64,000 bases of DNA from Oscillospiraceae bacterium (GTDB lineage Bacteria; Bacillota; Clostridia; Oscillospirales; Acutalibacteraceae): contig CADCLS010000001.1 of the NCBI GenBank assembly GCA_902802375.1, forward strand, positions 186,001 to 250,000. The letters are read 5' to 3'. Numbering within the stretch: position 1 is the stretch's first letter; each line of letters starts with the position of its first letter. Below, in pieces: positions 12,355 to 30,917 of this stretch. The notes below the pieces were generated by a model. It did no database searches and was not told where the DNA came from. It saw only the letters and a list, made by a program, of their open reading frames with translations. A program made the translations under genes and the position numbers.

Positions 12355-12410
12355 ATCCACTGTGTTAAATCGCATTCGCGTTATATAGTTTATAAGTTAA
12401 TATCCTTTAT

Positions 12411-12447
12411 CGAGGTGTAGCACAGCTGGATGTCAGTTTTGGGAACA
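12411..12447 (+). pseudogene. Decayed 5' copy of tRNA-Pro
   Basis: The acceptor 5' strand, D-arm and anticodon loop of the intact tRNA-Pro recur here: CGAGGTGTAGCACAGCTGG, then TCAGTTTTGGGAAC. Part of the D-loop/anticodon stem is missing, and nothing matches the T-arm or 3' acceptor. It cannot fold as a tRNA. Confidence 0.75.
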
Positions 12448-12499: not shown

Positions 12500-12575
12500 C
12501 GAGGTGTAGCGCAGCTGGTAGCGCGCCAGTTTTGGGAACTGGATGCCGCAGGTTCGAGCCCTGTCACCTCGACCA
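12500..12575 (+). tRNA. tRNA-Pro (anticodon UGG)
   Basis: Full cloverleaf with CCA encoded. Acceptor stem CGAGGTG pairs with CACCTCG. Anticodon stem CCAGT/ACTGG holds loop TTTGGGA, giving anticodon TGG. The T-loop is GGTTCGAGCC-like. Its 3' end is the insertion point of the mobile element that follows, and the tRNA sequence is left intact by the insertion. Confidence 0.97.
12560..12575 (+). repeat. attL: 16-bp direct repeat at tRNA-Pro 3' end
   Basis: CCTGTCACCTCGACCA, the last 16 bases of the tRNA, is repeated exactly downstream of the integrase gene at 30837-30852. Duplication of a tRNA 3' end is the standard footprint of tyrosine-recombinase integration. Confidence 0.88.
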
Positions 12576-12797: not shown

Positions 12798-13094
12798 ATG
12801 AAAGACAACTTAAAAGACATAGGAATTCTCGGCCGCAGGCATTACGATTACCTGAAAGCAACCAAACCAACAGTAATAAATGTTATGCGGATGAACGGCA
12901 CACTAAACTCTTATCTTAAAAGCGTAAATGCCCAAGCCGAAGAAATGCTTTTTCAGTTGGTGAAGCAAATGGCAAAAGCCGAAAGCGTGACTGAGCAACT
13001 CAAAGCCACCGACCAGTTGAAATGGGTGCGCCGTATGAACTCTATCCGCAACCGTGCCGAAGAGATTGTCAAAAGCGAGGTGCTGTTTATATGA
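12798..13094 (+). CDS. TnpV-like transposon-encoded protein
   Basis: A 98-aa protein resembling the TnpV proteins of Firmicutes transposons. Recognisable features are the N-terminal LGRRHYDYLK stretch and the C-terminal block KAESVTEQLKATDQLKWVR followed by RMNSIRNRAEEIV. It has no established biochemical role. The start ATG follows AAAGGAGGG; the longer upstream extension of the frame has no ribosome site. The stop overlaps the next gene by four bases (ATGA). It is the first gene inside the left end of the element. Confidence 0.75.
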   Translation: MKDNLKDIGILGRRHYDYLKATKPTVINVMRMNGTLNSYLKSVNAQAEEMLFQLVKQMAKAESVTEQLKATDQLKWVRRMNSIRNRAEEIVKSEVLFI

Positions 13095-13450: not shown

Positions 13451-13541
13451 ATAAGTCAGCCATAATGATACATGTTTTGCGAGGGTATCCTTACTCATGA
13501 CAAAACACTACAATTCTATAGTTGTTTACTGTAGTAAGATT

Positions 13542-13739
13542 TTATCGCAATAAAGTAGTTAAAATATCTCCGTAACCTACAACTTGCAAACGTTCATCTC
13601 TTGTAATATCAGCTGTTGCGTCATAATATCCTACAACTTGTAAACTTTCATTCCTTAATGTCTTATCGCCATTATCCGCAATTTCTACAAAACCGATAAC
13701 TTGAAGACGATCATCTCTCAATGTAATAGTTTGTGACAT
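13542..13739 (-). CDS. Small triple-repeat protein (LQV-V/I-G-Y/F repeats)
   Basis: A 65-aa protein made almost wholly of three imperfect repeats with core (R)D(D/E)RLQVIGF, NESLQVVGY, RDERLQVVGY, spaced about 21 residues. Each looks like one beta-hairpin. The pattern recalls small beta-flower-type repeat proteins, but I cannot assign it to a family. Strong ribosome site (TAGGAGG, nine bases before ATG). It ends facing the strong bidirectional terminator, and upstream lies the agmatine-deiminase-like gene. Confidence 0.7.
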   Translation of the reverse strand: MSQTITLRDDRLQVIGFVEIADNGDKTLRNESLQVVGYYDATADITRDERLQVVGYGDILTTLLR

Positions 13740-13796
13740 ATTGTAAATCCTCCTATATATTAATTGTTTTCAAACTCCCATTCTTTCTACGAACAA

Positions 13797-14600
13797 TCAA
13801 GGTCCAAATGTTTCCCAACTAATGCAGTTAAGGCAGCCACCATCCGCGGCTATTTCATTAATTTCAACCGGTATGATTTTTTTAGTGAAAATGCGCTCTG
13901 CCGCTTCGATTGCTTCCTTGTCTTCAGGCACGCCGAAGACGGGCAAAAAGATGTGTTTTTCGGTTTCAAGGAAGTTTAAGTAACAACCTGCTGCACTGAT
14001 ACCCCGGCTTTCAAAATAGGGGAAATCAATTACATTTATATTTTCTTTTTTGAGCGCCCTTTTTATCCTGTATTCAAGCCCGTATCTTGTGCCTGTACCG
14101 TTTCCGATAACGGTGTTTTCATCCACAAACCGCACCATACCGTCAGCGTGACCGGTCATATCGCTTTTAAGCGAAGGTATTATGATTATTTTCGCTTCAA
14201 GCAGGTTTTCAAGTTCCGATAATAATTCATTTTCGGTGCGTTTGGGGTTTTCTGCAAATACCCTGTCGCTTATTATCGCCCTTTCTTTTGAATGTGAGAA
14301 TACAATATTTCCTCCGTCAAGGTTAATATCGGAATAGGTGACTTTAACAGGTATTTGCGTTTCGATGTCCCGGTAATTTGTGCGCAGATTTTTATCGTTT
14401 TTAAGATACTTCGGCTCATAGCGGAAAGAAATATACTTCCCACTTTTGAGTTTACCCGGCATAAAATCACGAAGCCATATATCCTTTGTGTTTTCGATAT
14501 AAGAAAAAGCGATTTTATCTTCTTTTAGCGCCGTTGATATTCTATCGGCGGCAGGTTTGTATTTTGGGGTGGTTTTAAGTAAAGATGAAAAGTATATCAT
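13797..14600 (-). CDS. Agmatine/peptidylarginine deiminase family protein
   Basis: Guanidino-group-modifying (GME) superfamily enzyme; relatives convert agmatine to N-carbamoylputrescine or deiminate arginine. Motifs in order: IWLRDFMP (~41-48), NLDGGN (~93-98), GHADGMVRF with catalytic His151 and Asp153, and a terminal Cys motif GGCLNCISWE where Cys259 aligns with the nucleophile. The His usually next to that Cys (HC) is Asn here. At 267 aa it is much shorter than classical AguA (~365 aa). Its ATG directly abuts the stop of the preceding gene, so the two are coupled. The substrate is uncertain. Confidence 0.8.
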   Translation of the reverse strand: MIYFSSLLKTTPKYKPAADRISTALKEDKIAFSYIENTKDIWLRDFMPGKLKSGKYISFRYEPKYLKNDKNLRTNYRDIETQIPVKVTYSDINLDGGNIVFSHSKERAIISDRVFAENPKRTENELLSELENLLEAKIIIIPSLKSDMTGHADGMVRFVDENTVIGNGTGTRYGLEYRIKRALKKENINVIDFPYFESRGISAAGCYLNFLETEKHIFLPVFGVPEDKEAIEAAERIFTKKIIPVEINEIAADGGCLNCISWETFGP

Positions 14601-15341
14601 TCACTTAAACTCTTTTGGAATATAGCCTAGATAGTTTTTGCAAAATTCCGCCCGTTCCTCTTTTGAAGAAAACGCTTCTTTAACATATTTTTTCGTCATT
14701 TCTTCTCTGTGCGGCAATGAAACTGTCCCTGCATATTTAATATGAAAATCCCTGACAATTGCCAATTCCAGTTTCTCATATTTTTCTTTTACCGATTTAA
14801 TCACTGCATTTTTTTCTTTTTTTGAAGAAATACCGATTCTTGATGTGTATGAAACCACCGTTTTGTCAGAATGTTCAACGGGGTAAAGAATTGATTTTTG
14901 CAGATTATACTTCTCACGAATTTTACCGCTTAACTCGCTTTGTGTAGTGAATTCACCGTTTACAAGTGTATATTTCAGTAAGAAAGATAAATAGTATTGA
15001 TCGCTAAGAGGCAAACAAATATCTACTCCACTTCTTTGATCATCGGTTTTATGGTGAAAATACAACTTTCCAAAGTTTTCCTCACCTTTTTGCTCTTTTG
15101 AACCGTGAACAAACGGATCAATAAAACCGGTGCAACTCTTATATGTATTCCTTTCATCTGCTTTTTTATTGCTGCCCTGATAATAATATGCCTCAACCCA
15201 TAACGGAATAACCGTAATGCCGTCAACTATAATCTCATATTCTGTTACAAGTTTTTCCCCTATCTCTCTCAAAATCTTTACTATTTCTTCTTTGCCGGTT
15301 TTGCCTTCTAATTTTCTGACCAATTTTTTTAATTCTTCCAT
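14601..15341 (-). CDS. Hypothetical protein, faint resemblance to alkyladenine DNA glycosylases
   Basis: A 246-aa soluble protein I do not recognise with confidence. The stretch PLWVEAYYYQG (~46-56), followed by FVHGSKEQ, FGKLYFHH and GVDICLP, recalls the order of motifs in AAG-type 3-methyladenine glycosylases (V-E-A-Y, then FG..Y.). The C-terminal third is Lys/Glu-rich. Ribosome site AGGAGG eight bases before the ATG. It is translationally coupled to the downstream deiminase-like gene (stop TGA abuts ATG), so a joint role is likely, but no function should be assigned. Confidence 0.6.
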   Translation of the reverse strand: MEELKKLVRKLEGKTGKEEIVKILREIGEKLVTEYEIIVDGITVIPLWVEAYYYQGSNKKADERNTYKSCTGFIDPFVHGSKEQKGEENFGKLYFHHKTDDQRSGVDICLPLSDQYYLSFLLKYTLVNGEFTTQSELSGKIREKYNLQKSILYPVEHSDKTVVSYTSRIGISSKKEKNAVIKSVKEKYEKLELAIVRDFHIKYAGTVSLPHREEMTKKYVKEAFSSKEERAEFCKNYLGYIPKEFK

Positions 15342-15667: not shown

Positions 15668-16357
15668 TCAATCGTTAAAATAATGTTCCTGCCACTTGAT
15701 ACGCATTTCCGCATATTTGCGGTACCATTTCGCCGCCTCTTCCGGCCGGCGGTGAAAGAGATATTTTTCAGCAAGCGAATGTATTGCATATTCGTGCTCC
15801 TGCTCCGCCGCGGAAAGCCACCACTGTTCTGCGGCTTTAGTGTCTTTCTTTGTGTCCCTTGTGCCGTAATAACACCTGATACCTAATTCATACTGCGCCT
15901 CCGCATCGCCGCTCATGGCAAAATCGAGCAGTTCATCATACGGTTTTTTTGTCATATTTCTATCGTCGGTAAGCAGATCTAAGAGCGATTTATAATGCGG
16001 ATCTTCAAGGTATTCGGCAACCTGCAAATCGTCACGGTGGCTGGCGGCGGTTTGCACGCCGAATACACTGCCTTGAACAAGGTCGTCCACATCCTTATAT
16101 CTTACAATCGCAGAAGAATAGTTTTGTTTTACTCCGTATCCAGTTTCATAGCACAAACCGCACTCGTATGTTGCTCTGATATGGTCGTTTCTTGCCGCTT
16201 TTGTAAATAAATCAAAAACCGTTTTCCGTATTTTTTTGTTTTTGCTCTTTTTGAGTTTGCAGGCAAGTTCATATTGAGCGTCTTTGTCGTTATGATTTGT
16301 TGCTTTATTCCAAAGGTCTTTGTATTTTTCAAATTCTTTGCTGAAAATATATTCCAT
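15668..16357 (-). CDS. Sel1-like repeat protein
   Basis: About 229 aa, cytoplasmic, with Sel1/TPR-like helical repeats used for protein-protein contacts. Clear repeat signatures are ATYECGLCYETGYGVKQNY (~80-100) and AQYELGIRCYYGTRDTKKD, then AAEQWWLSAAEQ (~150-190), plus a C-terminal AAKWYRKYAEM. Start follows GGAGGT by six bases; an upstream in-frame start has no ribosome site. It is the last gene on the - strand before the small membrane protein/topoisomerase block and may share its transcript (38-base gap). Confidence 0.78.
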   Translation of the reverse strand: MEYIFSKEFEKYKDLWNKATNHNDKDAQYELACKLKKSKNKKIRKTVFDLFTKAARNDHIRATYECGLCYETGYGVKQNYSSAIVRYKDVDDLVQGSVFGVQTAASHRDDLQVAEYLEDPHYKSLLDLLTDDRNMTKKPYDELLDFAMSGDAEAQYELGIRCYYGTRDTKKDTKAAEQWWLSAAEQEHEYAIHSLAEKYLFHRRPEEAAKWYRKYAEMRIKWQEHYFND

Positions 16358-16395
16358 ATTGCACCTCCGTATATCATCCGACACGAAAACCGTGT

Positions 16396-16671
16396 TTACT
16401 TTTTATTTTCATTATTCCTGTTCATCTTTTGCAGTTCGGTTATCAGTTTGCCGGTAGCAATGTCGGTGTTATAAACCGCGCTGTTAGTTGCCGGTGATGA
16501 TACATTACCCGTTTCGCCGCCTTCCTCAAAAAGGCCTATGATAAGCGTGCCGCCGGTCGTAATAAGAATTGTTGATATCTTAAATTCACCAGAAAACAGG
16601 CACAGAATAAATCCTATGGCGGCACCTACAAGTGCTAGTATACATATACCTTTCAATGTGATTTTTCTCAT
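16396..16671 (-). CDS. Small membrane protein with C-terminal TDIATGKLITELQK motif (paralogue 1)
   Basis: 91 aa: two hydrophobic segments (~residues 8-26 and 32-48) with a short FSGEF link between them, then a soluble tail ending in Y-N-T-D-I-A-T-G-K-L-I-T-E-L-Q-K. The whole protein is paralogous to the one at 20927-21292 on the other side of the topoisomerase genes (shared CLFSGEF and the tail motif). Ribosome site TTAGGAG. Function unknown; two helices plus a short conserved tail would suit a membrane anchor or regulator. Confidence 0.75.
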   Translation of the reverse strand: MRKITLKGICILALVGAAIGFILCLFSGEFKISTILITTGGTLIIGLFEEGGETGNVSSPATNSAVYNTDIATGKLITELQKMNRNNENKK

Positions 16672-16729: not shown

Positions 16730-18976
16730 TTAAAAAGGTTTTCCCTTTGTTGCTCTCTTGCCAACACCGAGTTTTGAGACAACATATTCCTTTTCATTAT
16801 ATATAAATCGGCCATTTTGATTGACTGCATCAGCAAAGACAACTTCATCGCCCTTGTTAAGTTTGATGCCGATCACGCCTACGGAATTGCGTTTCAATAT
16901 AGAGATACTTCCCTGATCAAAGGAAACGCAAAGCCGATTTTTTGTGATAAGCACGATATCGCCCTTGTTGGAAAGCGGCATAACGGAGACGAGCAGATCG
17001 TTTTCACCAAGTTTGGTAGCATCTATTGTTCTGCGAGACGTAGCGTACTCGGAAACTTGAATTTTTTTCACAATACCGTTCTTTGTAGTTAAGAGCAGTT
17101 TTTCGTGCAGTTTTAGGTTGGAAACGACGGAAATCACTGTCTCCTGCTGCGTAAGTGCGGAGACCGATTCCAGCGGGACGCCCTTATCGTTGTATCTTCC
17201 AATAGGAACGGAGAGAACTTTGATCTGGTGACACTTGCCCTCGGCGGTGAAGACGTAAAGTCTGCCGACGTTCATAACCTCGCAGACGAAGCGATAATCG
17301 TTCAGGATATTGGCGGAGTTGCGCTCGTAGGTCGCGGTATCGATGAGTTTGATATAACCGAAACGGTTGATAAGCGCGTAGACCTTTTCCTCTTTTATCT
17401 CTGCTTTTTTGATGACGACCGCTTCGCCGTCGATGATCTCGGTCTTCCGCTTCTTCGCGTATTTCGCCTTTATTTCGAGCAGGTCGGCACGGAGTTTATG
17501 GTTTAGTTTCGTTCTGCTTCCGACGTAGCCGGAGTATATCTCGATATTCTTACGGCACTTTGCGAGTTCTTTGACGAGTATGTTCATCTCCAGCCCGATC
17601 AACTTCTGCATACGCATTTCGAGTATCGCATCGGCCTGTACGTCTGTAAACCGGAACTTCGCAGCGATCTTCTCGCTCGCCTTCGTCTTGAATTTAATAC
17701 CTTCCGTAACGCCCTTTGTAAAACATTGCTTGACCTGCGCGACCGTCGTCGAACCGCGAAGCGTTTCAATGATGGCGTCGATACATTCGACGGCTTTTAT
17801 AAGCCCTTCGCGCACCTCGGCGGCTTTCTTTTCTTTTTCGAGAAGGTTTTTATACTTTCTCATTTGCGTTTCGCGGTAGAAATCGAGAAATTCGTTAAGA
17901 ATACGGATCAACGGCATCTGGGAAGGAATCCCGTTTGAAAGCAACATGGCGTTATAGCCAAAGGTGTCCTCCAACTTTGCCTTTTTGTAAAGCAGGTTGA
18001 TATTCTGCTGAACGTCTGCGTCCTTCCGCAGTTCTATAACGATGCGGATCCCGTCTTTGCCGGAGAAGTTTTTTATATCCGTTACATCGGGCATAACCTT
18101 AGACCTGGCAAGATTTGCAACGGTGTCCATAAACTTGTCAATACTGCCGATCATCGTACAGGGGATCTCGGTAACGACGATATTCGTCTTGCCGCGTTCG
18201 CCTTTCTCGGCCTTCACTCTGCCCCGCACGCGGATCTTTCCGGCTCCGGCGGCGTAGATCTCCGGCAGTTCGATTTTATTGACTATTATCCCGCCGGTGG
18301 CAAAATCCGGACCTTGAACGTATTCGAACAGTTTTTCCGGTTTAAGTTTTGGGTTATCTATCAACGCCACGCAGGCGTCGACGACTTCGCCGAGGTTGTG
18401 AGTCGGCATTTTGGAAGCCATACTGACGGCGATACCGTCGGTGCCGGAGATAAGTATATTCGGAATACACGCGGGGAGCACCGTCGGCTCCTTTTCCTTG
18501 TTGTCGAAGTTTGGGACGAAATCTACGGTTTCTTTGTCGAGATCGGAAAGCAGAACGTCCTCGGAGATCGGGGCGAGACGGCATTCGGTATAGCGCGAAG
18601 CCGCCGCGTCGTCCCCTTCAACGGAACCGAAGTTGCCGTGTCCATCGACAAGCGGGTGGTTGTAGCACCAATCCTGCGCCATATGCACCATCGCATCATA
18701 AATCGAAGCGTCGCCGTGCGGGTGGTATTTACCCATCGTCTCGCCCACCACGCGGGCGGATTTTTTATAATCGCCGGAGGAGGAAAGTCCGAGCGACTTC
18801 ATCGCCCAAAGTATCCGGCGATGCACCGGCTTCAAGCCGTCGCGCACGTCGGGGATCGCGCGGTCGGTGATTACGCTGACGGCGTAATCTATGTACGCGG
18901 AAGACATTTCGTCGGTAAAATCCGTGGAGATGATGTCTTCGATTATTTCTTCCTGTATTTCATTCTTTTTTGCCAT
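16730..18976 (-). CDS. Type IIA DNA topoisomerase subunit A (GyrA/ParC-like), element-borne
   Basis: DNA-cleaving subunit, 748 aa. N-terminal: SSAYIDYAVSVI, RAIPDVRDGLKPVHRR, the quinolone-determining segment KYHPHGDASIYDAMV, catalytic Tyr129 in ASRYTE. A coiled-coil tower and C-gate follow (~350-490), then a C-terminal beta-pinwheel ending GVGKRATKGKPF. Residue 90 is Ala where E. coli GyrA has Ser83 (as in mycobacterial GyrA); Asp94 is kept. No QRRGGKG-type GyrA box is visible in the first blade, which points to topo IV-like relaxation/decatenation rather than negative supercoiling. Start at ATG nine bases after TGAGGG. It follows the B subunit in one operon. Most of the gene is GC-richer than its neighbours. 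Confidence 0.92.
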   Translation of the reverse strand: MAKKNEIQEEIIEDIISTDFTDEMSSAYIDYAVSVITDRAIPDVRDGLKPVHRRILWAMKSLGLSSSGDYKKSARVVGETMGKYHPHGDASIYDAMVHMAQDWCYNHPLVDGHGNFGSVEGDDAAASRYTECRLAPISEDVLLSDLDKETVDFVPNFDNKEKEPTVLPACIPNILISGTDGIAVSMASKMPTHNLGEVVDACVALIDNPKLKPEKLFEYVQGPDFATGGIIVNKIELPEIYAAGAGKIRVRGRVKAEKGERGKTNIVVTEIPCTMIGSIDKFMDTVANLARSKVMPDVTDIKNFSGKDGIRIVIELRKDADVQQNINLLYKKAKLEDTFGYNAMLLSNGIPSQMPLIRILNEFLDFYRETQMRKYKNLLEKEKKAAEVREGLIKAVECIDAIIETLRGSTTVAQVKQCFTKGVTEGIKFKTKASEKIAAKFRFTDVQADAILEMRMQKLIGLEMNILVKELAKCRKNIEIYSGYVGSRTKLNHKLRADLLEIKAKYAKKRKTEIIDGEAVVIKKAEIKEEKVYALINRFGYIKLIDTATYERNSANILNDYRFVCEVMNVGRLYVFTAEGKCHQIKVLSVPIGRYNDKGVPLESVSALTQQETVISVVSNLKLHEKLLLTTKNGIVKKIQVSEYATSRRTIDATKLGENDLLVSVMPLSNKGDIVLITKNRLCVSFDQGSISILKRNSVGVIGIKLNKGDEVVFADAVNQNGRFIYNEKEYVVSKLGVGKRATKGKPF

Positions 18977-18987
18977 TGATTTCGCCC

Positions 18988-20904
18988 TCACACGTCGAGA
19001 TTTGCCTTGTCGGCGTTACTTACGATATATTCGCGGCGCGGAGCGACCTCCTCGCCCATAAGGACGGAGGTAAGGCGGTTCGCGTCGATGACGTCCTGCA
19101 TATTGATCTGTTTCAGTTTGCGCGTTTTCGGATCCATCGTCGTTTCCCAGAGTTGGTCGGAGTCCATCTCGCCCAAACCTTTATAACGCTGGATATCGAA
19201 GGCGTTGCCGTGCTTTTTACGGTATTCGGCAAGCGCCTTGTCGTCGTAGATATATTCCGGCTTGCCGCGCTTCGGCTTTACTCTGTAAAGCGGCGGCATT
19301 GCGCGGTAGAGTTTGCCGGCGTAGATGAGTTCCGGCATAAAGCGGTAAAACAAGGTGAGCAGAAGCGTACAGATATGCCCGCCGTCAACGTCGGCGTCGG
19401 CGGCGATTATTATCTTGCTGTAGCGAAGTTTGCTTATATCGAAATCGTTACCGTACCCCTGCGAAAAGCCGCAGCCCAGCGCGTTGACGATGGATTTGAT
19501 CTCGTCGTTTGCTAAAACCTTGTCAACACTCTGCTTTTCGACGTTGAGTATCTTGCCGCGTATCGGCAATATCGCTTGATATTTGCGGTCGCGCCCGGTC
19601 TTCGCCGTGCCGCCGGCGGATTTGCCTTCGACGATGAATATCTCGCATTTGGAAGGATCGTTCGATTCCTGCCGCGCGAGTTTGCCGTTGCCTTCAAAGG
19701 CGAATTTCTTATCCGCGAGATTCGTGCGTAACTTCTCCTCTTCTTTACGCACCTTCGCCGCCGTTTCGGCGCGTGCGATGATCGTCTTCAGGCAATCGAG
19801 ATTACGGTCGAAATAATGCTGGAGTCCGGAATTGAGGATCGACATCATCGCGCTCTGAACGTCGGTATTGTCGAGTTTGGTCTTGGTTTGTCCCTCGAAG
19901 CGAGGCGACGGGTGGCTTACGGAGATGACCGCCGTCATACCGTTGCGCGTGTCGTTTCCGGTGAAACTTGCGTCCTTGCCTTTGAGATTGCCGAGTTCGC
20001 GGGCGTACTGGTTGATGACCTTCGCAAATCCGGACTTGAACCCGACGACGTGAGTACCGCCCTCCATCGTGTTGATATTGTTGCAGAAACTGACTACGTT
20101 ATCCCCATACGTCTGCGTAAAGCAGAAGGAAACGGCGATCTTGATCCCGTCCCGCTCGCCTTTGACGGTTACCGTTTCGGTTATGCGTTTTGCTTCCTGA
20201 TCCTGCGCGACGAGCGAATCGACAAACCCGGCGATCCCGTCCGGTTCGTTGAAAACCTCCGGCTCCCTGCCGTCGCGGGAGTTGACGAAGGTTATCGTCA
20301 GCGCCGGGTTGAGGAAAGCCGTCTCGCGCAATCTTTCCCTTATGGATTCGGCTTTGAATTTCACGGTATCGAATATGGTGTCGTCCGGCCAGAAAGTGAT
20401 CTTCGTGCCGGTTTTCTTCGCTTTGCCGGTCACCGGGAGCAGTTCGCCTTTTTTAAGTTTGACGGTCGGGGCGCCTTTTGCGTATTCGTCGCGCCAGACC
20501 TGTCCGTCGCGGCTTACTTCAACGATCATTTTGTTTGAAAGCGCGTTGACGACGGAGGACCCAACGCCGTGAAGTCCGCCCGCCGTTTTGTAGTTCGTGT
20601 TATCGAATTTGCCGCCCGCGTGGAGCGTCGTCATTATGATCCGTTCCGCCGGATAACCCTTTTCGTGCAGATCGACAGGTATTCCGCGCCCGTCGTCTTC
20701 GACCGTCGCGGAACCGTCTTTGTTAAGGCTGACGGAAATACTGTTGCAGTATCCGGCAAGATGCTCGTCCACGGAGTTGTCGAGTATTTCGTATACGAGA
20801 TGATTCAGCCCCTTGACCGAAGTCGATCCGACGTACATTCCTGGACGCTTGCGGACAGGATCAAGCCCCTCTAATACCGATATGTCGCTTGCGTTGTATG
20901 ACAT
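18988..20904 (-). CDS. Type IIA DNA topoisomerase subunit B (GyrB/ParE-like), element-borne
   Basis: ATPase subunit, 638 aa, the usual length for Gram-positive GyrB/ParE. GHKL ATPase: EILDNSVDEHL, DDGRGIPVD, GGLHGVGSSVVNAL; the novobiocin-contact Arg (VWRDEY) is kept. Transducer: QTKTKL (~340). TOPRIM: EIFIVEGKSAGGTAK with Glu426, then DADVDGGH (Asp503/505/507); tail QRYKGLGEM. Unusual: Lys428 replaces the near-invariant Asp of EGDSAGG (E. coli Asp426, a quinolone-resistance position). The A subunit follows 11 bases after the stop, so they form one operon. Ribosome site GGGGAG. GC-rich relative to the element. Confidence 0.93.
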   Translation of the reverse strand: MSYNASDISVLEGLDPVRKRPGMYVGSTSVKGLNHLVYEILDNSVDEHLAGYCNSISVSLNKDGSATVEDDGRGIPVDLHEKGYPAERIIMTTLHAGGKFDNTNYKTAGGLHGVGSSVVNALSNKMIVEVSRDGQVWRDEYAKGAPTVKLKKGELLPVTGKAKKTGTKITFWPDDTIFDTVKFKAESIRERLRETAFLNPALTITFVNSRDGREPEVFNEPDGIAGFVDSLVAQDQEAKRITETVTVKGERDGIKIAVSFCFTQTYGDNVVSFCNNINTMEGGTHVVGFKSGFAKVINQYARELGNLKGKDASFTGNDTRNGMTAVISVSHPSPRFEGQTKTKLDNTDVQSAMMSILNSGLQHYFDRNLDCLKTIIARAETAAKVRKEEEKLRTNLADKKFAFEGNGKLARQESNDPSKCEIFIVEGKSAGGTAKTGRDRKYQAILPIRGKILNVEKQSVDKVLANDEIKSIVNALGCGFSQGYGNDFDISKLRYSKIIIAADADVDGGHICTLLLTLFYRFMPELIYAGKLYRAMPPLYRVKPKRGKPEYIYDDKALAEYRKKHGNAFDIQRYKGLGEMDSDQLWETTMDPKTRKLKQINMQDVIDANRLTSVLMGEEVAPRREYIVSNADKANLDV

Positions 20905-20926: not shown

Positions 20927-21292
20927 TCATTTTTTGTTAAGCTTTTGCAGTTCGGATATTACTTTTCCGGTGCCTAAATCTGTGTTGTACCTTACGCTGT
21001 TCACTTCGGCGGATTCAAAAATCCCCGCCTCGGGTTTATCTTTATTCAGTTTTTGAAGTTCTGAAATCACTTGTCCGGTTCCCAAATCCGTGTGATAAAG
21101 CATACTGTTCATTTCCGGCGAGGTTGGTATAGTTGGTGCTTCAACACCCGAAAGACCTATGCCTAACACTGCAAGTGTCGTCAGAACAACTATTCCTATG
21201 CTGAATTCACCGCTGAAAAGACAGATTATAAGTCCAATGCCTATACCTATGAGTGCAATTATGCTTATATCCTTTAACGAAGGATTTTTCAT
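20927..21292 (-). CDS. Small membrane protein with duplicated TDLGTGKVISELQKLNK tail (paralogue 2)
   Basis: 121 aa: two hydrophobic segments (~residues 7-25 and 32-47) around CLFSGEFSIG, then a tail holding two tandem copies of a motif with core Y-x-T-D-L-G-T-G-x-V-I-S-E-L-Q-K-L-N-K (~75-92 and ~103-120). Paralogous to the 91-aa protein at the far end of the topoisomerase operon, which has one copy. Start at ATG after AAGGAG; the longer form lacks a ribosome site. It lies 22 bases upstream of the topoisomerase B start on the same strand, so it is probably co-transcribed with it. Confidence 0.78.
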   Translation of the reverse strand: MKNPSLKDISIIALIGIGIGLIICLFSGEFSIGIVVLTTLAVLGIGLSGVEAPTIPTSPEMNSMLYHTDLGTGQVISELQKLNKDKPEAGIFESAEVNSVRYNTDLGTGKVISELQKLNKK

Positions 21293-21305
21293 TTTCGTTT
21301 CTCCT

Positions 21306-22172
21306 TTACTGTATGTCTTCAAACATTTTAAGATATTCCTTGAAACTTATTGGCGTTTGGTCGTCCGGCGCGGCGTCAACGCCGAGTTTTGAGTAAGGAT
21401 TCAGTTGCCACGCCTCGTGGGTTGAATCAAACATTGCAAAATAAGGGCGGTGGCGTATTACATAGCCCGACCGGCGAAGCAAACCCATATCTATATCTTT
21501 ACAACTGACGATATAGTTTTTGTTATACTCTTCAGGCAGTTCCGGCAATATACGGCGGCGAAAACGCCGCATAAAACTTTTGCCCTCTTTTTCTTCGGAC
21601 AAACCGTAATGCCGTCTTAGTTTGTTTAAGAAATCCCTGTCACCCGCCTTTTTTGCGGCGATATACAAAGGATTCTTTTTTATACTCTTTTCGGTAGGGC
21701 TTTTAAGCGCGAGAAGAAGTGTTTTTTCATATTTGGGAGCAAGTACCGTGGCTATCATATAAAGCTTTGTTATCATTGATTCAAGTGTGCTGTTTCGGTA
21801 AAGCACGCTGCCTTCCTGTCCCTTTCTGTTAACGTAGCAAACAGTGTAGGTGTATTTATCGCACGGCTCACTCTTAAAGCAGACTTTGAAGTTTTTATCT
21901 TTAAGGCATTTCCGGCTTGGCCATTTCAGTATTTTAAGAACATCTACTCTATACCTGCCTATCGCCGCTTTCACAGTCGCATTTGCCTCTTCCGAAAGAT
22001 AAAAGGTTTCTCCGCCAAGTAGCCGTTCGGCGGTCTTTGCCTTTTTATCGCAAAAGTATTCGTGCGAGTCCCCCTGCGGCAACTGAATGCTCATAAGATA
22101 CCTGCCGTAATGATCTTCGAGACAAGTGCAGTTTTCGATTTTTTTAATAATGTTTTTTGTGTTTTCTTTCAT
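21306..22172 (-). CDS. Hypothetical soluble protein (288 aa)
   Basis: I do not recognise a family. No signal peptide or membrane helix. The N-terminal ~150 residues are mixed alpha/beta with several Cys (e.g. KCLKDKNFKVCFKSEPCDKY). The middle has a basic RRFRRRILPELPEEY stretch (~205-220) and the C-terminus has aromatic-rich RHRPYFAMF. Start at the ATG after GGAGG, eight bases; an earlier in-frame start overlaps the upstream protease gene and lacks a ribosome site. It sits between the AAA+/M41 gene and the small membrane protein, closely spaced, suggesting one - strand operon running into the topoisomerase genes. Confidence 0.65.
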   Translation of the reverse strand: MKENTKNIIKKIENCTCLEDHYGRYLMSIQLPQGDSHEYFCDKKAKTAERLLGGETFYLSEEANATVKAAIGRYRVDVLKILKWPSRKCLKDKNFKVCFKSEPCDKYTYTVCYVNRKGQEGSVLYRNSTLESMITKLYMIATVLAPKYEKTLLLALKSPTEKSIKKNPLYIAAKKAGDRDFLNKLRRHYGLSEEKEGKSFMRRFRRRILPELPEEYNKNYIVSCKDIDMGLLRRSGYVIRHRPYFAMFDSTHEAWQLNPYSKLGVDAAPDDQTPISFKEYLKMFEDIQ

Positions 22173-22195
22173 AAACAATTCCTCCGTAATGGGTT

Positions 22196-23497
22196 TTATA
22201 TACTTACGGGTGTTATCGTGCAAGTGCTTTTTATCTCATCAATATCACGAGTTACAAGGTAACCTTTTAATGCTAACTCATTAGCAATTTTTTCAAAGAA
22301 AATACCGTTTTTTACAAGAATCTCCGTTGCTTTCATAGAAAGCCGTTCTGCTTCAAAAGCACCTACCTGTTCGAGAGCGGCTTTTGACTGCTCCGAGACA
22401 TCGGAGATTGTGCCTTGCCGCAGATTGAAACCTCCTACACATTCGCATCTTATAAGTGCTTTTTCTGTTGTGAATGCACCTTTTAAATCTTTGTTAACGC
22501 CAGTGTCGTTGCAGCCGAATTTAAGGCGCAATGCCGCTTTTCCTGCAAGTGCAGTAACTATACTTATGTACATATTATCTATTCGCGGAATGTCATCGTT
22601 TGCATTGCTGGTTACAAATGCTACCGTATCGTTTTTGTTCATATATGCCGCTATTAGCGAAACGCTACCGGGGCTTAATACTTCACTTACTGTAGCGTGA
22701 GCAGCTTCATGATAAACTATCCTCCGCATTTTTTCAGTTGTGTTTTCAAGGTTTTGTCTTTTTTTGTCTATAAGATATTCGGGCACTTTATAATATCCGC
22801 TCAAAATTGCTTTAATTAAATGCTCGTCGGTAATCGATTCCGCCGACTCATATGCCGCAATTATACCCGCTCTGTTCACAAGCGTTTGTATTGCAGCACA
22901 AGATTTACCTTCAAGAATTTTTGATATGCTTTCCATATCTTTAATATCGGTCGATTTAGTTTTTTCGAGATAATGGGCAGTTACTCTCTTGCCTTCATCA
23001 CCAAAAGCCGCATATACTTCAATTGTTTTTTCAAACCGTCCTTCACGTTTTAATGAATCCGGAAGTTTTTCAGGTTCATTTGCAGTTGCGATAACAAAGA
23101 CTTCGCTGTCCCCGATTTCATCCATCATTGCCTGTATAGTGACGAATATACTTGCATCCTTGTGATCCTTATCGTTGTTGGCGTATTTATCGATATCGTC
23201 AAGGAACACAATTGACGGTGCATTTTGTTTTGCTTCTGTAAAAATTTTATTTATATGATTTGTAAAATCTGTATCGGGCATATTTTTGCGGCACACAAAC
23301 GTTTTTCTGCCGCTTTCATAAATGAGTGCGTTTGCCATAAGCGTTTTTCCTACACCGGGTTCGCCCGAAAGCAAAAGCCCCCTCGGCGCACATACACCAA
23401 AAGCTTTATACTTATCTGTGTTTTTTAAAACATCGGCAATAATTCTTAATTCGTATTTGATCTCTTCGTAACCAATTATGCTTTCAAAAGTGTTCAT
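22196..23497 (-). CDS. FtsH-like AAA+ ATPase/M41 zinc metalloprotease without membrane anchor
   Basis: Predicted ATP-dependent protease, 433 aa. AAA+ module: Walker A GEPGVGKT (45-52), Walker B IVFLDDID (96-103), sensor TAN (138-140), arginine finger block REGRF (151-155). Peptidase M41 module: zinc motif HEAAH (263-267) and a downstream Asp in VNKDLKGA that fits the third ligand. FtsH normally has two N-terminal membrane helices and ~600+ residues; here the AAA module starts at once, so it should be soluble. It heads the run of genes leading to the topoisomerase pair and is preceded by an unusually long leader. Confidence 0.88.
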   Translation of the reverse strand: MNTFESIIGYEEIKYELRIIADVLKNTDKYKAFGVCAPRGLLLSGEPGVGKTLMANALIYESGRKTFVCRKNMPDTDFTNHINKIFTEAKQNAPSIVFLDDIDKYANNDKDHKDASIFVTIQAMMDEIGDSEVFVIATANEPEKLPDSLKREGRFEKTIEVYAAFGDEGKRVTAHYLEKTKSTDIKDMESISKILEGKSCAAIQTLVNRAGIIAAYESAESITDEHLIKAILSGYYKVPEYLIDKKRQNLENTTEKMRRIVYHEAAHATVSEVLSPGSVSLIAAYMNKNDTVAFVTSNANDDIPRIDNMYISIVTALAGKAALRLKFGCNDTGVNKDLKGAFTTEKALIRCECVGGFNLRQGTISDVSEQSKAALEQVGAFEAERLSMKATEILVKNGIFFEKIANELALKGYLVTRDIDEIKSTCTITPVSI

Positions 23498-24112: not shown

Positions 24113-24146
24113 TAATAAACCATGAGGTTTTCTCATGGCTTATTAC
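24113..24146. terminator. Terminator of the zinc-ribbon/HTH gene
   Basis: Arms ATAAACCATGAG / CTCATGGCTTAT around GTTTT. The stop codon of the minus-strand gene lies inside the hairpin. Confidence 0.7.
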
Positions 24147-24561
24147 GTTTTTGTACAATAACTGCTACATATAAATCATCTATGACATTATGGGCTATTA
24201 AAAGCTCATAATTATTTTCTTCTTTTATACTATATTTTAACTCCTCGCATAAGTCTTCATAATCAGGGCATTCCAGAATGCCATCATCCCATTGACCTTG
24301 AAAATCAATCGGTGTTTTCTTCATCCATCTATGAATTAGCGCGGGATCTCGTTTCAAATAATTAGCAATAAGCCTTTGTTTTCCTTCGCCCAATGCTTGA
24401 AAAATAGTGCACAACGCCTTATCTATTGTGGCTATTTGGAACTCCCTTCCATCCTCCTCTACAAAATGGTATCCACATCGTTTACATAAATATCGCTGTT
24501 TACCTCTGACTTTTCCGCTTTTTACAACTTCAGTAGATGCGCATCGCTTACATTCTTGCAT
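24133..24561 (-). CDS. Orphan IS1/IS1595-like InsA-type zinc-ribbon HTH protein
   Basis: 142 aa. The N-terminus is an IS1-InsA-type zinc ribbon, CKRCAST...VVKSGKVRGKQRYLCKRCGYHFV, with two CxxC pairs at ~4-7 and ~27-30. A helical DNA-binding stretch (LIANYLKRDPALIHRWMKK) follows at ~63-82. No DDE transposase domain and no IS inverted repeats are seen nearby; the C-terminal half (DYEDLCEELKYSIKEE) is unlike InsB. It may be a domesticated transposase-derived regulator. It has its own promoter, divergent from the next gene. Confidence 0.75.
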   Translation of the reverse strand: MQECKRCASTEVVKSGKVRGKQRYLCKRCGYHFVEEDGREFQIATIDKALCTIFQALGEGKQRLIANYLKRDPALIHRWMKKTPIDFQGQWDDGILECPDYEDLCEELKYSIKEENNYELLIAHNVIDDLYVAVIVQKRNKP

Positions 24562-24758: not shown

Positions 24759-25658
24759 ATGGCAGATAAAATCGTATTGACAGATGAGCAGAAAAAAGAA
24801 GTTGTAAATGCATTTAAGGAAAATGATTTTACGGCTAAGGTGCCGCTCAAAAGAAAACGCAACATTGTAGGCGAAAATGCGAAAGTATTTTTGAAAGCAA
24901 AAAAGTTTTTCGGAGAATACTGGCTTGGCAACCTCCGTCCTCTCGGCGTTAAAAGGCCCGCAAAAAACTTTTCAATTAATCATCCAGTTAACTTTCTTGA
25001 AAATGCGGATGCAGAATACATCGCCGAAAATGTTATGAACATCTATTCCGATCCTCAAAAGCTTAACGAAGCAATTGACACTATGTTTGTTATGTATAAA
25101 GAGCCAATTGAAAAAGGGCTTATCGGATATGCAGGTCAACTCGGTAAAGATGTTGACGATTTGACAGACGAAGAGATAATTTATGTCGTAGAAAAAGTTG
25201 CTGAAGTTGCTGGTGAGGTCGGGACAAGCGTTATTATGCAAGGTCAGCAGGTGCCGGAGCTTTTCGGTATTTCGGCACAAATACCTCAACACGAAGATTT
25301 TTCAGACAAACTCTCGACCGACAAAATCAACTTTCACAAGAAATGGACACACTATGATACCAAACTCGGCGCACCGCTCCTTTTCAGCGAGTTGTCGGAA
25401 AATGAGACAACAGATATCGAGGGTGCAAAGAGTTTCTTTGGAAGTAATCCCGGTATGGAAATAAAATATAACTTTTTCCGCGATGAATATGCAAAGACAT
25501 TGGACGGAATAGATAGAGAAATATATTACTTATCCGAGCAGGGATACAAACAAAAAGAAATTGCCGAAAAACTCGGATACAGCAATCACTCTGCCGTTTC
25601 AAAACGGATGAGAAAGATGAACATAGATTTTCAAGAATTCTTAGGATTCAAGCAATAA
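24759..25658 (+). CDS. Hypothetical protein with C-terminal sigma-70 region 4-like HTH
   Basis: 299 aa, soluble, acidic overall. The C-terminal ~60 residues read as a helix-turn-helix of the sigma region 4/LuxR kind: YLSEQGYKQKEIAEKLGYSN followed by HSAVSKRMRKM. The N-terminal ~220 residues are not recognised. Start is an ATG eight bases after AAGGTG. It has its own promoter and terminator. A replication-initiator or regulatory role for the element is possible but not shown. Confidence 0.65.
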   Translation: MADKIVLTDEQKKEVVNAFKENDFTAKVPLKRKRNIVGENAKVFLKAKKFFGEYWLGNLRPLGVKRPAKNFSINHPVNFLENADAEYIAENVMNIYSDPQKLNEAIDTMFVMYKEPIEKGLIGYAGQLGKDVDDLTDEEIIYVVEKVAEVAGEVGTSVIMQGQQVPELFGISAQIPQHEDFSDKLSTDKINFHKKWTHYDTKLGAPLLFSELSENETTDIEGAKSFFGSNPGMEIKYNFFRDEYAKTLDGIDREIYYLSEQGYKQKEIAEKLGYSNHSAVSKRMRKMNIDFQEFLGFKQ

Positions 25659-25907: not shown

Positions 25908-26336
25908 TTGAATAATCAAAGCCAAGATGCTTTAATTTCGGAATCCGCTTCCGAAATTAAGCGGCGGTGTGGCAGACCGACTGTATTTGAGCGCGATCAC
26001 ATGGAGGGCATGGAAAAATTGTGCACAGCGGATAAGCACAGGACACGCAGGTCTCATGTTGCCGATTATTACCGTGGTTCTGTATTCGGCATTTTAGAGG
26101 ATCACAGTGATATTCCTTACCTTGAAGGAATCTTTCGAATCGACGGAAACGCCTGCATTGAAAAATGTGAAATTATTGAACAGCTCGGACGCATGCATGT
26201 GCAGGACGGTTACGGCGAAGACACCATCATTTACGCCGCAACACTTGCGGCAAGATTTTACCATAATGGTAATACGGTAAAAGAAATTGCGGCATATTTA
26301 CGGCGTGTTAGAAAAGCAAAAAGTTGGGATGTGTAG
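25908..26336 (+). CDS. Hypothetical mobilization-region protein (142 aa)
   Basis: Soluble 142-aa protein, not recognised. The N-terminus carries SESASEIKRRCGRPTVFER, of which the first part is encoded by a perfect inverted repeat; the C-terminus is a basic helical RRVRKAKSW. Start is TTG eight bases after AAAGGAGGG; no ATG fits that ribosome site. Similar small genes often sit just upstream of mobC in Firmicutes mobilizable elements. A second copy of the inverted-repeat core follows just after the stop, so the gene is framed by two likely protein-binding or attenuator sites. Confidence 0.65.
   Translation: MNNQSQDALISESASEIKRRCGRPTVFERDHMEGMEKLCTADKHRTRRSHVADYYRGSVFGILEDHSDIPYLEGIFRIDGNACIEKCEIIEQLGRMHVQDGYGEDTIIYAATLAARFYHNGNTVKEIAAYLRRVRKAKSWDV
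25932..25960. repeat. Perfect inverted repeat, copy 1 (TTTCGGAA-5-TTCCGAAA core)
   Basis: Twelve-base perfect arms TTAATTTCGGAA and TTCCGAAATTAA separated by TCCGC. It lies inside the first codons of the 142-aa gene. Confidence 0.85.
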
Positions 26337-26643: not shown

Positions 26644-26967
26644 ATGGGGAAAGAAACAAGAATCGCTTTTCGCTTGTCACAAAAGGAAAAGCAAATCATT
26701 ACGGCAAAGGCAAAGAAATGCGGTATTTCAAGAACTGAATATGTCAAGCAAAGAGCATTGGGTTATGAACCGAGAGCGGTTCCGCCTGATACTCTTTTTA
26801 AGTTGCTCGAAAAGATAGGCGGCTTAGAGGACAAAAGCAGTTCTCCTGAACTCAACATGAAAATAGAGAGGTTGCTAAAAGAGATTTCTGAAACTTTGCT
26901 TCTGCCCGGAAAGGACGGTGGTGCTTTATTGCAGTTACAGGATTCTGGCCCGTTTACGGAAACCTGA
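26644..26967 (+). CDS. mobC: Relaxosome accessory protein MobC
   Basis: 107-aa ribbon-helix-helix-type MobC that helps the relaxase open DNA at oriT. Visible: TRIAFRLSQKEKQIITAKAK then KCGISRTEYVKQRALG, the classic plasmid-mobilization MobC opening, followed by a helical tail (ELNMKIERLLKEISETL). Start ATG follows AAAGGAT. The 3' end overlaps the probable true start of the relaxase by about 40 bases in another frame, a usual arrangement for mobC-relaxase pairs. Confidence 0.85.
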   Translation: MGKETRIAFRLSQKEKQIITAKAKKCGISRTEYVKQRALGYEPRAVPPDTLFKLLEKIGGLEDKSSSPELNMKIERLLKEISETLLLPGKDGGALLQLQDSGPFTET

Positions 26968-28307
26968 AAGCCACACTCGAGTATGCCGACAATCCCGACA
27001 AAACAATACCGAAAGAATATCTTGACGATGATTTATACTCGGCAGTTCAGTATGTGCAGAATGATGACAAAACAGATAAGCAGATGTTAGTTGCCGGTAT
27101 AAACTGCTCAAAGCAAAACGCCTATGCCGAAATGGTTTCGGTTCAACAGCGTTTCGGTATGAAAGGCAAGGTTGTGGCTTACCACGGCATACAAAGTTTT
27201 AAGTCGGGTGAGGTTACACCGGAGGAGGCATTTTCAATCGGCAAAGAAACGGCAAAACGAATGTGGGGAGAACAGTATCAGGTACTTGTTACAGTACACC
27301 TGAACACGGATCAACTGCATTGCCATTTCGTTGTAAATCCTTGTTCATTCAAAGACGGTCAAAAGTTTAAAAACAAAATAGGTGACCATTTAGAACTACG
27401 CAAGGTGTCTGATGAAGTCTGTCGTGAATATGGCAAATCGGTTTTAGAAAACAGCAACTTTTACTCAAATGGTAAAAAGAAAGAATACTGGGTTCAGCGT
27501 AACGGACAAATGACACATCGAGATATGATTAAAGAAGATGTTGAGTATGCTTTACAGTTTTGTGACTGTGCCGATGATGTATATAGATATCTTAAATCTA
27601 TCGGCTACACGATAAATGACGACAGAAAACATCTTACAATCATGGCAATAGGTTGGCAAAGACCTGTGCGTATGGATACTCTCGGATTTACAAGAGAATA
27701 CCTTAATAAACGGCTTAACGAAAACTATAATGATCCTGACTTTGAGTATTTCAAACGCAGGTATCCGCCTTACAAGCCGAAAGCATTTCCACTCTTATAT
27801 GAGATAGAAGAGTTGGAGTTTACAATCGAGTACAGCCACAGTATCGAGAAGATTTATGTTGCACTATTATTTCTCGTTATTATACGCACCTTTGAGTTAC
27901 TCCACGAGATTAAAGAGGAAATGTTATTATCCGTACAACTAAGGCACGAAGAGCGAGACCTGAAACAGTATATCAGCGACTATCATTTTATGCGTAACAA
28001 CGACATTGAAACTTTAGAGGATTTATTCAACGATATCCAAAGAACAAAGACAGAAATATCCGAATTAGAACAACAGCGTTATCAATATGACAACAAGCGT
28101 CGTCGGGCAAAGACACCCGGCGACATTAACATTTATAAAGAAAAACGCAAGGAACTCACAAAACAAATAACACCCCTGCGCAAGCGGTTAAAACAGGCGA
28201 AAAAGATTTGGGATAAATCACCGCATCTGTTAGAACTCGTTAAGCAGGAACGCTCGCTGGAAATCGAAGCGAGACAAAGAATTAAAAATAAAGATTGGAG
28301 TAGATAA
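26928..28307 (+). CDS. Relaxase/mobilization nuclease (MOBP, MobA/VirD2 type)
   Basis: Nicks oriT and pilots the strand during mobilization. The frame contains the Tyr-bearing motif AVTGFWPVYGNLKATLEYADNPDKT-like N-terminus just after the proposed start, then VHLNTDQLHCHFVVN with the HxH(x3)N metal motif, and a long Lys/Arg-rich C-terminal coiled region. There is no ATG/GTG/TTG that keeps the N-terminal motif: the codon where homologues start reads ATT. A GTG at 27054 is the first conventional start but would delete the catalytic Tyr. I therefore place the start at the ATT, which may be a rare start codon or a damaged one. Confidence 0.75.
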   Translation: MAVTGFWPVYGNLKATLEYADNPDKTIPKEYLDDDLYSAVQYVQNDDKTDKQMLVAGINCSKQNAYAEMVSVQQRFGMKGKVVAYHGIQSFKSGEVTPEEAFSIGKETAKRMWGEQYQVLVTVHLNTDQLHCHFVVNPCSFKDGQKFKNKIGDHLELRKVSDEVCREYGKSVLENSNFYSNGKKKEYWVQRNGQMTHRDMIKEDVEYALQFCDCADDVYRYLKSIGYTINDDRKHLTIMAIGWQRPVRMDTLGFTREYLNKRLNENYNDPDFEYFKRRYPPYKPKAFPLLYEIEELEFTIEYSHSIEKIYVALLFLVIIRTFELLHEIKEEMLLSVQLRHEERDLKQYISDYHFMRNNDIETLEDLFNDIQRTKTEISELEQQRYQYDNKRRRAKTPGDINIYKEKRKELTKQITPLRKRLKQAKKIWDKSPHLLELVKQERSLEIEARQRIKNKDWSR

Positions 28308-28309
28308 AA

Positions 28310-29266
28310 ATGAAAGAAAAAACAAAAGAAACTGCCGTAAAGGCAGTAAACAAAAAATCCAACAAAAAGGATATTGACAACTTTATAGACACCTTACTAA
28401 CAAAGGAACCGGCTGAAAAGAAACAAAAGCCGAAACTTGCCAATATAAAGATTGAAAAGTTAAAGCCGTTTGAGGGACATCCTTACAAGATAGTCGATGA
28501 TGAATCAATGGAGGAACTAAAAAGCAGTATTCAAGAGAAAGGACTGTTAAACCGCATAATCGTCCGGCCGATTGAAAACACAGACGAATATGAGATAATC
28601 TCCGGTCACAGGAGAGTGCACGCCGCCGAGCTTCTTGGAATTAAAGAAGTCCCGGCGGTTGTTTATTTCATTGATCGTGACGAGGCAACCGTTCTAATGG
28701 TCGATTCAAACTGTCAGAGGGAAAGTTTATCTCCTATGGAAAAGGCAAAGGCGTATAAGATGAAATTCGACGCACTTTCTCATCAAGGGAAAGCAACTTC
28801 GGACCAAGTTGGTCCGAAGTTGACAGTTGAGCAAATATCCGACAACGACAGTCCGTCGCAGGTGAAACGGCTTATCCGTCTAACCTACCTTGTCCCCGAA
28901 CTGCAACAGTTTGTTGACGACGGCAGGATGAAAGTATCTCCGGCAGTGGAGATTTCTTTCCTTGACGAGGAACTGCAAAGGGATGTAGTTGACCGCATTG
29001 ACGAAACCGAAATCTTCCCGTCACACGCACAAGCAAGGCGTATGAAACAATTAGCCGCAGAAGATAAACTTGACTATGATTCTATCGTTGAAATCATGTC
29101 CGAACTCAAACCCAATCAGGTGGAAAAACTAAAGATTCCGGTTGACAGCATACGACAGTATGCACCGAGGAATGCGACGCCGAAAGATATGGAAGAGCTG
29201 CTTATCCGTCTTGCGAGAGAAAACTATGAACGCCAGTGCCGTATGCGCGATGACGATGCAAGATAA
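28310..29266 (+). CDS. ParB/Spo0J-like partition or regulatory protein
   Basis: 318 aa. N-terminal ParB domain: IKIEKLKPFEGHPYKI, EELKSSIQEKGLLNRIIVRP, the nucleotide-binding motif SGHRRVHAAELLG, and SNCQRESLSPMEKAKAYK. A central helix-turn-helix-like region and an acidic C-terminus follow. It starts two bases after the relaxase stop, on the same transcript. In mobilizable elements such proteins aid maintenance or regulate transfer genes; no partner ParA is seen. Codons ~163-171 coincide with a perfect palindrome within the gene. Confidence 0.85.
   Translation: MKEKTKETAVKAVNKKSNKKDIDNFIDTLLTKEPAEKKQKPKLANIKIEKLKPFEGHPYKIVDDESMEELKSSIQEKGLLNRIIVRPIENTDEYEIISGHRRVHAAELLGIKEVPAVVYFIDRDEATVLMVDSNCQRESLSPMEKAKAYKMKFDALSHQGKATSDQVGPKLTVEQISDNDSPSQVKRLIRLTYLVPELQQFVDDGRMKVSPAVEISFLDEELQRDVVDRIDETEIFPSHAQARRMKQLAAEDKLDYDSIVEIMSELKPNQVEKLKIPVDSIRQYAPRNATPKDMEELLIRLARENYERQCRMRDDDAR
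28796..28820. repeat. Perfect 12+1+12 palindrome inside the parB-like gene
   Basis: Arms ACTTCGGACCAA and TTGGTCCGAAGT with a single central G. It encodes part of T-S-D-Q-V-G-P-K between two conserved ParB blocks. A plausible ParB-binding (parS-like) or cruciform site. Confidence 0.8.
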
Positions 29267-30836: not shown

Positions 30837-30852
30837 CCTGTCACCTCGACCA
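30837..30852 (+). repeat. attR: 16-bp copy of tRNA-Pro 3' end
   Basis: Identical to the last 16 bases of tRNA-Pro including CCA. Upstream of it the sequence no longer matches the tRNA, so it marks the right border of the element. Confidence 0.88.
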
Positions 30853-30854
30853 GT

Positions 30855-30900: not shown

Positions 30901-30917
30901 ATAGTTTTTACCTCGCG
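30855..30917 (+). repeat. Imperfect direct repeat, copy A
   Basis: CGAGA..CTC.AC.CGC, then AGTTGAG, CTTTTTATAGTT and TACCTCGC. The same ordered blocks recur at 31038-31104. Confidence 0.6.

Follow-up and report, generated by a model that had tools for sequence, protein, structure and literature searches.

A probable accessory topoisomerase IV carried by an integrative mobilizable element in an Oscillospiraceae bacterium

The stretch analysed here, 64 kb from the genome of an Oscillospiraceae bacterium (the window; contig CADCLS010000001.1, positions 186,001 to 250,000), carries adjacent genes for the two subunits of a type IIA DNA topoisomerase inside an 18.3-kb element bounded by 16-bp exact repeats of the 3′ end of a tRNA-Pro gene. 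The host has its own gyrase and topoisomerase IV (topo IV), and the window pair adds to them and does not replace them. With high confidence we regard the pair as a topo IV that is accessory to the host's own set and is carried by a mobile element, much as a preliminary description made from the letters alone had proposed: the host enzymes are encoded separately, and the pair lies on what appears to be an integrative mobilizable element (IME) with siblings that share its backbone. Far more tentatively, and at somewhat less than an even chance, the best explanation overall is that this apparently foreign, IME-borne topo IV acts as a poison-tolerant spare.

The topoisomerase pair and the enzymes of its host

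Both genes lie on the minus strand, B before A, with 11 bp between them. Subunit B (18988..20904; ParE/GyrB type) has 638 residues and exceeds the Pfam cut-offs for DNA_gyraseB, DNA_gyraseB_C, Toprim and HATPase_c, and the ATPase and TOPRIM positions checked by alignment are retained. Subunit A (16730..18976; ParC/GyrA type) has 748 residues when read from the ATG at 18976, an alternative GTG start at 18991 being possible, and matches the Pfam model DNA_topoisoIV over positions 1-431 of 432 together with the GyrA C-terminal repeats. Residue count places Tyr129 and Ala90 in subunit A, and alignment places Lys428 in subunit B. Both reading frames are intact, the operon spacing is tight and a ribosome-binding site is apparent by eye. 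The Pfam and alignment results bear out the earlier description of a complete type IIA B-A operon with intact ATPase, TOPRIM and Tyr129, and confirm, at the level of sequence, that the pair has the family features of an intact type IIA DNA topoisomerase. The type IIA families match the two proteins over nearly their whole length, and the type IIB fold of Topo VIII is not found in them.

None of the NCBIfam equivalog cut-offs for gyrA, gyrB, parC and parE is reached by the pair; subunit A passes the subfamily model PRK05561, and subunit B passes PRK05644 and narrowly misses PRK14939. The label "topo IV-like" therefore rests on the missing GyrA box and on the phylogenetic trees described below, both of which sustain the earlier suggestion of such an enzyme. 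When 35 sources were scanned with the pattern Q[RS]RGG[KR]G, in loci that mostly exclude the gyrA genes of genomes G150-G155, the sole match was the QSRGGKG box of host GyrA. The box is absent from the window subunit A, and the predicted enzyme thus lacks the hallmark by which DNA gyrase is recognised.

The host genome (1.68 Mb in 24 contigs, 99.86% complete, 3.29% contamination) holds three A- and three B-subunits, that is, three complete B/A sets. Its gyrBA genes lie behind dnaA-dnaN-recF and are oriC-linked (L008), and a divergent parE/parC pair stands beside polC- and valS-like genes (L007; gene names by eye). These two loci rule out the window pair as the only topo IV of the host, a possibility that the preliminary description had itself raised. 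Such a third set is rare. In a sample of 197 relatives with genomes of 90% completeness or more, counting the host itself, three A-subunits at E<=1e-40 were found in the host alone, and the other 196 have at most two. A B match at E<=1e-200 was found in the host only (1 of 394 sampled genomes of the order). Within 150 sampled genomes of the family, again counting the host, all other B matches at E<=1e-100 are at most 50% identical, and 13 genomes have no match at that threshold.

The element, its siblings and its cargo

The 16-bp repeat has two copies in the 64 kb and no other on either strand. One is the attL core (12560..12575, plus strand), the 3′ end of the tRNA-Pro (TGG) gene that forms the integration site (12500..12575, plus strand; ARAGORN), and the other is the attR core (30837..30852, plus strand), in agreement with the earlier claim of att repeats around a tRNA-Pro-inserted element. 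The backbone, on the plus strand, comprises a gene at 24759..25658 (78% and 94% identical in siblings L208 and L213), another at 25908..26336 (84-86% in the same siblings), and genes for a NikA-like mobilisation protein (26644..26967; PF21983), a MobA/VirD2-type relaxase (27054..28307; PF03432), a ParB-like protein identified by family searches (28310..29266) and a tyrosine integrase (29560..30738; PF00589). A TnpV-like gene (12798..13094, plus strand) occupies the left end. No mating-channel gene was detected among 17 window proteins scanned with Pfam, some small open reading frames (ORFs) lying outside the scan. With an integrase, a relaxase, att repeats at a tRNA gene and no conjugation machinery found, the element is, as judged from its gene content, an IME.

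Three further copies of the relaxase (84-90% identity) are present in the same genome, close copies occur in G206, G588 and G205 of the same genus, and 45 of the 198 genomes searched, the host's own included, have a relaxase match at E<=1e-25. The G206 sibling (L221) shares the relaxase (88%), ParB (78%), integrase (68%) and, at the same left end, TnpV (87%). It sits at a tRNA-Met gene whose end is repeated over 11 bp beyond the integrase, and its cargo, between TnpV and the backbone, is a type III restriction-modification pair with a Fic protein. That this sibling occupies a different tRNA gene speaks for past mobility of the element. In the G588 sibling (L213), Eco57I-type methylase and ResIII-type genes lie near the same backbone; this restriction set may belong to another element, since a second, distant integrase (33%) intervenes. 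Two others, L209 and L225, appear cargo-free from their ORF layout. This comparison of cargo is unambiguous for G206 only; L208 is ambiguous, and L207/L222, L211/L223 and L224, some of them cut by contig ends, lie outside it. Searches with the window proteins gave no topoisomerase match in L207-L223 and L225. Together these observations support a mobile element with a variable cargo slot. By eye, L209 (G000 C1:37168-38415), which is in the host genome and has the same relaxase and ParB, also encodes a large serine recombinase, and it adjoins tRNA-Trp and tRNA-Met genes.

The topoisomerase genes are part of a seven-gene co-directional run on the minus strand whose members overlap or are separated by at most 58 bp. 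The run begins with an AAA+ ATPase containing an M41-like region (22196..23497; HEAAH by eye; FtsH/IetA-like in family searches), followed by a protein without family match that overlaps the end of the AAA gene (21306..22223) and by a small membrane protein directly upstream of B (20927..21322; by eye). Downstream of A come a second small membrane protein (16396..16671; by eye), an apparent paralogue of the first, and a Sel1-repeat protein (15668..16384). Also on the minus strand are an InsA-like zinc-ribbon gene (24133..24561; sub-threshold Pfam match) and, beyond Sel1, genes for an unknown protein (14601..15341) and a PAD_porph or agmatine-deiminase-like protein (13797..14600; PF04371). A 7.6-kb contig of G175, in the same genus, carries homologues of the zinc-ribbon protein (72%), the first small membrane protein (67%; both paralogues match this one gene), the AAA protein (79%) and the Sel1 protein (94.5%), as well as the start of a homologue of the gene at 14601 (92% over the first 142 residues). 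The G175 cassette contains no topoisomerase. Its gene order is somewhat different, with another ORF between, and sporulation-sigma-type genes stand alongside (by eye). Most simply read, the topoisomerase pair joined a pre-existing cassette; the G175 cassette exists without it, and GC content, described below, agrees.

Three further sequence features were noted near the ends of the element. A 22-nt stretch at 12408-12429, 89 bp before the tRNA, copies the 5′ region of tRNA-Pro at 95% and is perhaps a decayed tRNA fragment, and a short repeated stretch at 13540-13740 on the minus strand reads by eye as a small protein made up of three repeats that resemble one another. A hairpin-like intergenic sequence just outside attR (30853-31140) resembles by eye a stretch near 3780-3920 of L221, the sibling at the other tRNA in another species, and a related unit seems to be repeated in the window about 190 bp further on.

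Relatives and origin of the pair

The composition of the pair sets it apart from its surroundings. GC content is 0.54 for B and 0.49 for A, with third-position GC (GC3) of 0.70 and 0.61, compared with a GC3 of 0.43 and 0.47 for host gyrB and gyrA and a range of 0.30-0.47 in seven other genes of the element. The resulting hump extends from about 16.75 to 20.9 kb, is confined to the gene pair and is strongest over B. A scan of named genome contigs gave 63 loci, in which B matched five at 79-82% identity, one at 69% and the others at 66% or less, among them topo IV of Lachnospiraceae and Eubacterium at 57-62% and more distant gyrases. The five nearest relatives are enzymes of rumen and cecum Clostridia, and the B genes of three of the related loci (L045-L047) have a GC3 of 0.66-0.71. 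Nonsynonymous divergence (dN) from clade members is low, 0.13-0.22, with synonymous sites saturated or nearly so.

Of the 64 sources chosen for the trees, 28 came from the 63 named-genome loci and 10 from the 29 gyrB loci of the family (L010-L038). For the B tree, 64 rows were extracted and 55 retained, six second copies of loci and three partial rows (L107, L122 and L039) having been dropped; the A tree used all 37 rows. L044 is sister to the window pair in both (support 98/92 for B and 93/88 for A), with L045-L048 next and, in the B tree, L049 at the base; the A tree lacks L049, whose A-subunit is cut by a contig end. That both trees name the same sister is a sign that the two subunits moved together. 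In both, the window clade joins a Lachnospiraceae-type topo IV branch, apart from host-family gyrB and gyrA, although in the A tree the program warned that the joint of this clade with 18 Lachnospiraceae-type rows is possibly a long-branch effect. The phylogeny that the preliminary description had suggested as a check thus places both subunits with topo IV.

The gyrB genes of G151-G155 fall outside the host-family gyrB group in the B tree, and the donors suggested by kinship therefore represent another lineage. L045-L048 belong to one genus, in which four of six genomes have the enzyme; three of these loci, L046-L048, are contigs with common, chromosomal-looking neighbours (by eye). L044 is sporadic, occurring in 1 of 118 sampled genomes of its family, and lies 72 bp behind a gene whose product has two TIR stretches. 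B-type genes number 2, 3, 3, 3, 2 and 3, respectively, in the six genomes of L044-L049, and the gene neighbours differ among the window, L044, L049 and L046-L048. On composition and phylogeny, the window pair looks foreign and recently acquired.

A viral scan with a single-protein query gave two pattern matches, neither a relative, and a scan with the clade alignment gave 68 loci, the best at 60%; the trees included the two at 60% and put both outside the clade. Type IIA gene records matched in the plasmid and phage collections numbered 192 and 2161, some of them being chromosomes or chromosome pieces by length or content. A phage origin of the pair was considered and rejected. The three best-placed among the phage records examined (MT835992, MT836003 and MT836446; L039-L041; B at 60-64%) read by eye as pieces of Lachnospiraceae chromosomes. 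These records are deposited as "Bacteriophage sp." and have, for example, folate genes, citrate synthase and argH around parE/parC.

Pocket residues and possible benefit

Residue 428 of subunit B occupies the position of Asp426 of Escherichia coli GyrB, in the quinolone pocket. A pattern search caught 95 distinct contexts among the loci and the window, missing the gyrB genes of G151-G154 (Asp), and found Asp in 85, Asn in 4, Lys in 3 and Glu in 3. All seven members of the window clade lack Asp: the window pair, L044 and L049 have Lys, and L045-L048 have Asn. Both host gyrB and host parE have Asp. The Lys428 singled out in the preliminary description is thus real and rare; it is not peculiar to the mobile copy. 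That description had also conceded that the residue would lose force if it were common in chromosomal orthologues of the clade, and this is partly the case, the seven including syntenic, apparently chromosomal copies. We know of no test of Lys at this position. The gyrB of G155 (L111) has Asn at the pocket and its accessory B (L049) Lys, so that both lack Asp, and Glu is found in three viral-contig B-subunits (L241, L249 and L273). In E. coli, the GyrB change D426N raised the nalidixic acid MIC 64-fold (PMC6830822). The resistance reading of the window pair is weakened by the chromosomal copies and by an Ala90 shared with the host enzymes (see below), yet target bypass may still apply, Asn here being a recognised quinolone-resistance change of E. 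coli GyrB.

A poison-tolerant spare enzyme is the likeliest benefit of the pair, if possible rather than probable; we place it first because the clade lacks Asp, the host enzymes have it, and the pair is intact and recent-looking. Strand passage would follow from family membership, and that the pair is expressed, active and beneficial we infer. By homology, subunit B would bind ATP and provide the TOPRIM metal site, and subunit A would cleave both strands through Tyr129. The A2B2 enzyme would then move one duplex through another, giving relaxation and decatenation without gyrase-like supercoiling. A pocket without the usual Asp may let it tolerate gyrase and topo IV poisons such as drugs, microcin-like products or toxins, and the spare would keep the chromosomes and the element circle decatenated while the host enzymes are poisoned.

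Several observations weigh against this proposal. A tRNA-Pro gene beside YpeB, without element genes in the stretch, was found in 3 of 14 regions of the genus (G167, G205 and G066); the MgtE flank was found in none of them, the right flank does not adjoin the tRNA in G066 or G167, and the G205 contig ends about 180 bp past the tRNA, so that these regions offered no clean attB and no exact empty site. The B gene of L044 has a GC3 of 0.45, and composition therefore favours L045-L047-like donors where the tree favours L044. Syntenic copies in one genus that appear to be chromosomal likewise lack Asp, so the substitution need not be a resistance change. Ala90, previously offered as a resistance hint, was discarded, because host GyrA and ParC carry Ala at this GyrA-83 position too. 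An NCBIfam scan of 10 proteins named no drug-resistance family.

Other explanations were weighed against the same evidence. The enzyme might serve the element itself, decatenating or relaxing the excised form and its copies and so aiding segregation, excision and integration, or transfer. The ParB-like gene on the element is in line with such upkeep, as are the type IA TopB and TopA enzymes encoded by integrative and conjugative elements (ICEs) and islands, TopB3 and PbTopo IIIb being reported to stabilise islands (excerpt of PMC12388829). We consider it unlikely, as siblings with the same relaxase and ParB lack the pair, the host genome has three further relaxase copies and one pair, and the GC hump suggests a late addition. 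It is likewise improbable, in our view, that the pair is a mere passenger, a recent topo IV capture that brings little if any benefit and is heading for decay or loss. Its great rarity (1 of 394 sampled genomes of the order, and 1 of 118 of the L044 family) and a composition not yet adjusted to the host would fit, but the intact frames, retained catalytic positions, apparent ribosome-binding site and tight spacing argue otherwise.

Quite unlikely, too, is a defence or conflict module, in which the topoisomerase, as cargo in an anti-phage slot, would work with the AAA+ M41-like protease and the membrane proteins, either sensing or altering the topology of invading DNA or standing in for a host enzyme that phage inhibitors of gyrase have blocked. 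The restriction-modification and Fic genes of the G206 sibling, the methylase and ResIII-type genes of L213 and the TIR neighbour of L044 point this way. PADLOC finds the AAA protein similar to IetA (E 2e-19), with no IetS, as an IetAS system would have, among the 10 window proteins scanned. An accessory type IIA enzyme, TopoNM, has been proposed as part of an anti-plasmid system (excerpt of PMC8084294). Against this, neither subunit credibly matches a PADLOC model (the only match of A is at E 0.0045), the L213 set is possibly another element's, L209 and L225 seem to lack such cargo, no partner is constant among the varying neighbourhoods, and the G175 cassette contains the AAA gene but no topoisomerase. 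We gave this explanation less weight because the cargo of the G206 sibling alone is unambiguous. A broader version, which we rate as equally doubtful, would make the whole non-Asp type IIA clade a mobile resistance or defence trait that moves as a unit between bacterial lineages and into defence-type slots, the IME having a restriction-bearing sibling and L044 being TIR-linked; the spare enzyme would then confer immunity, DNA staying decatenated when competitors, phage proteins or drugs poison gyrase and topo IV. An assembly or binning artefact, a foreign fragment fused into the contig, is very improbable despite the 24-contig draft, its 3.29% contamination and the foreign composition of the pair, since the pair lies inside a 262-kb contig, is flanked by element genes whose homologues in the genus are close (94.5% for Sel1, 79% for AAA and up to 89% for the relaxase) and has a GC hump that starts and stops with it inside an operon-like run.

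Compared with known systems, the pair most resembles the Lachnospiraceae-type topo IV (ParE2ParC2) in domain order, B-A order, absence of a GyrA box and B identity (57-64%), and differs in being the third enzyme of its cell, in lying on an IME and in having Lys428 for Asp. The mobile-element topoisomerases described in the sources consulted are TopB and TopA, of type IA (PMC12388829), the type IIB Topo VIII, and type IIA enzymes encoded by large viruses and by phages (PMC8084294). TopoNM of Mycobacterium smegmatis, a positively supercoiling enzyme considered here from its description in PMC8084294, is likewise an accessory two-subunit type IIA enzyme with a suggested defence link, whereas the window pair groups with topo IV. 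Topo VIII and Mini-A are also type II topoisomerases on mobile elements but have the type IIB fold (PMC8084294 and PMC8185306, in part), and TopB and TopA of ICEs and genomic islands, though equally found on integrated elements, are type IA backbone genes (PMC12388829, in part), unlike the type IIA cargo described here, which is absent from the siblings searched. Extrachromosomal type IIA genes also occur in Bacillus phage G (B 42%), a 721-kb Aneurinibacillus plasmid (54%) and a 603-kb Jeotgalibacillus plasmid (51%); these are large replicons rather than IMEs, and both plasmid enzymes have Asp at the pocket. The plasmid pairs (L042 and L043) lie near crossover-junction endonuclease genes, with thymidine kinase and SSB genes also near that of L042, and their replicons are maybe phage-plasmids. 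Among the top-ranked literature results on mobile or extra topoisomerases, we found neither a topo IV pair on an IME nor a description of immunity by a spare topo IV enzyme. What appears to be new here is an IME whose cargo includes a topo IV pair of recent acquisition, in a host that has its own gyrase and topo IV.

Gyrase and topo IV are commonly regarded as fixed essential targets. If the spare-enzyme proposal is true, a complete spare topo IV passing between bacterial lineages as cargo of an element would open a way around these targets through gene transfer, distinct from point mutation and from Qnr-type protection, and the clade would offer a natural enzyme with Lys or Asn at the classic quinolone-pocket position for testing. 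If the pair is instead a partner in defence, a topology enzyme would join the cargo known from such elements.

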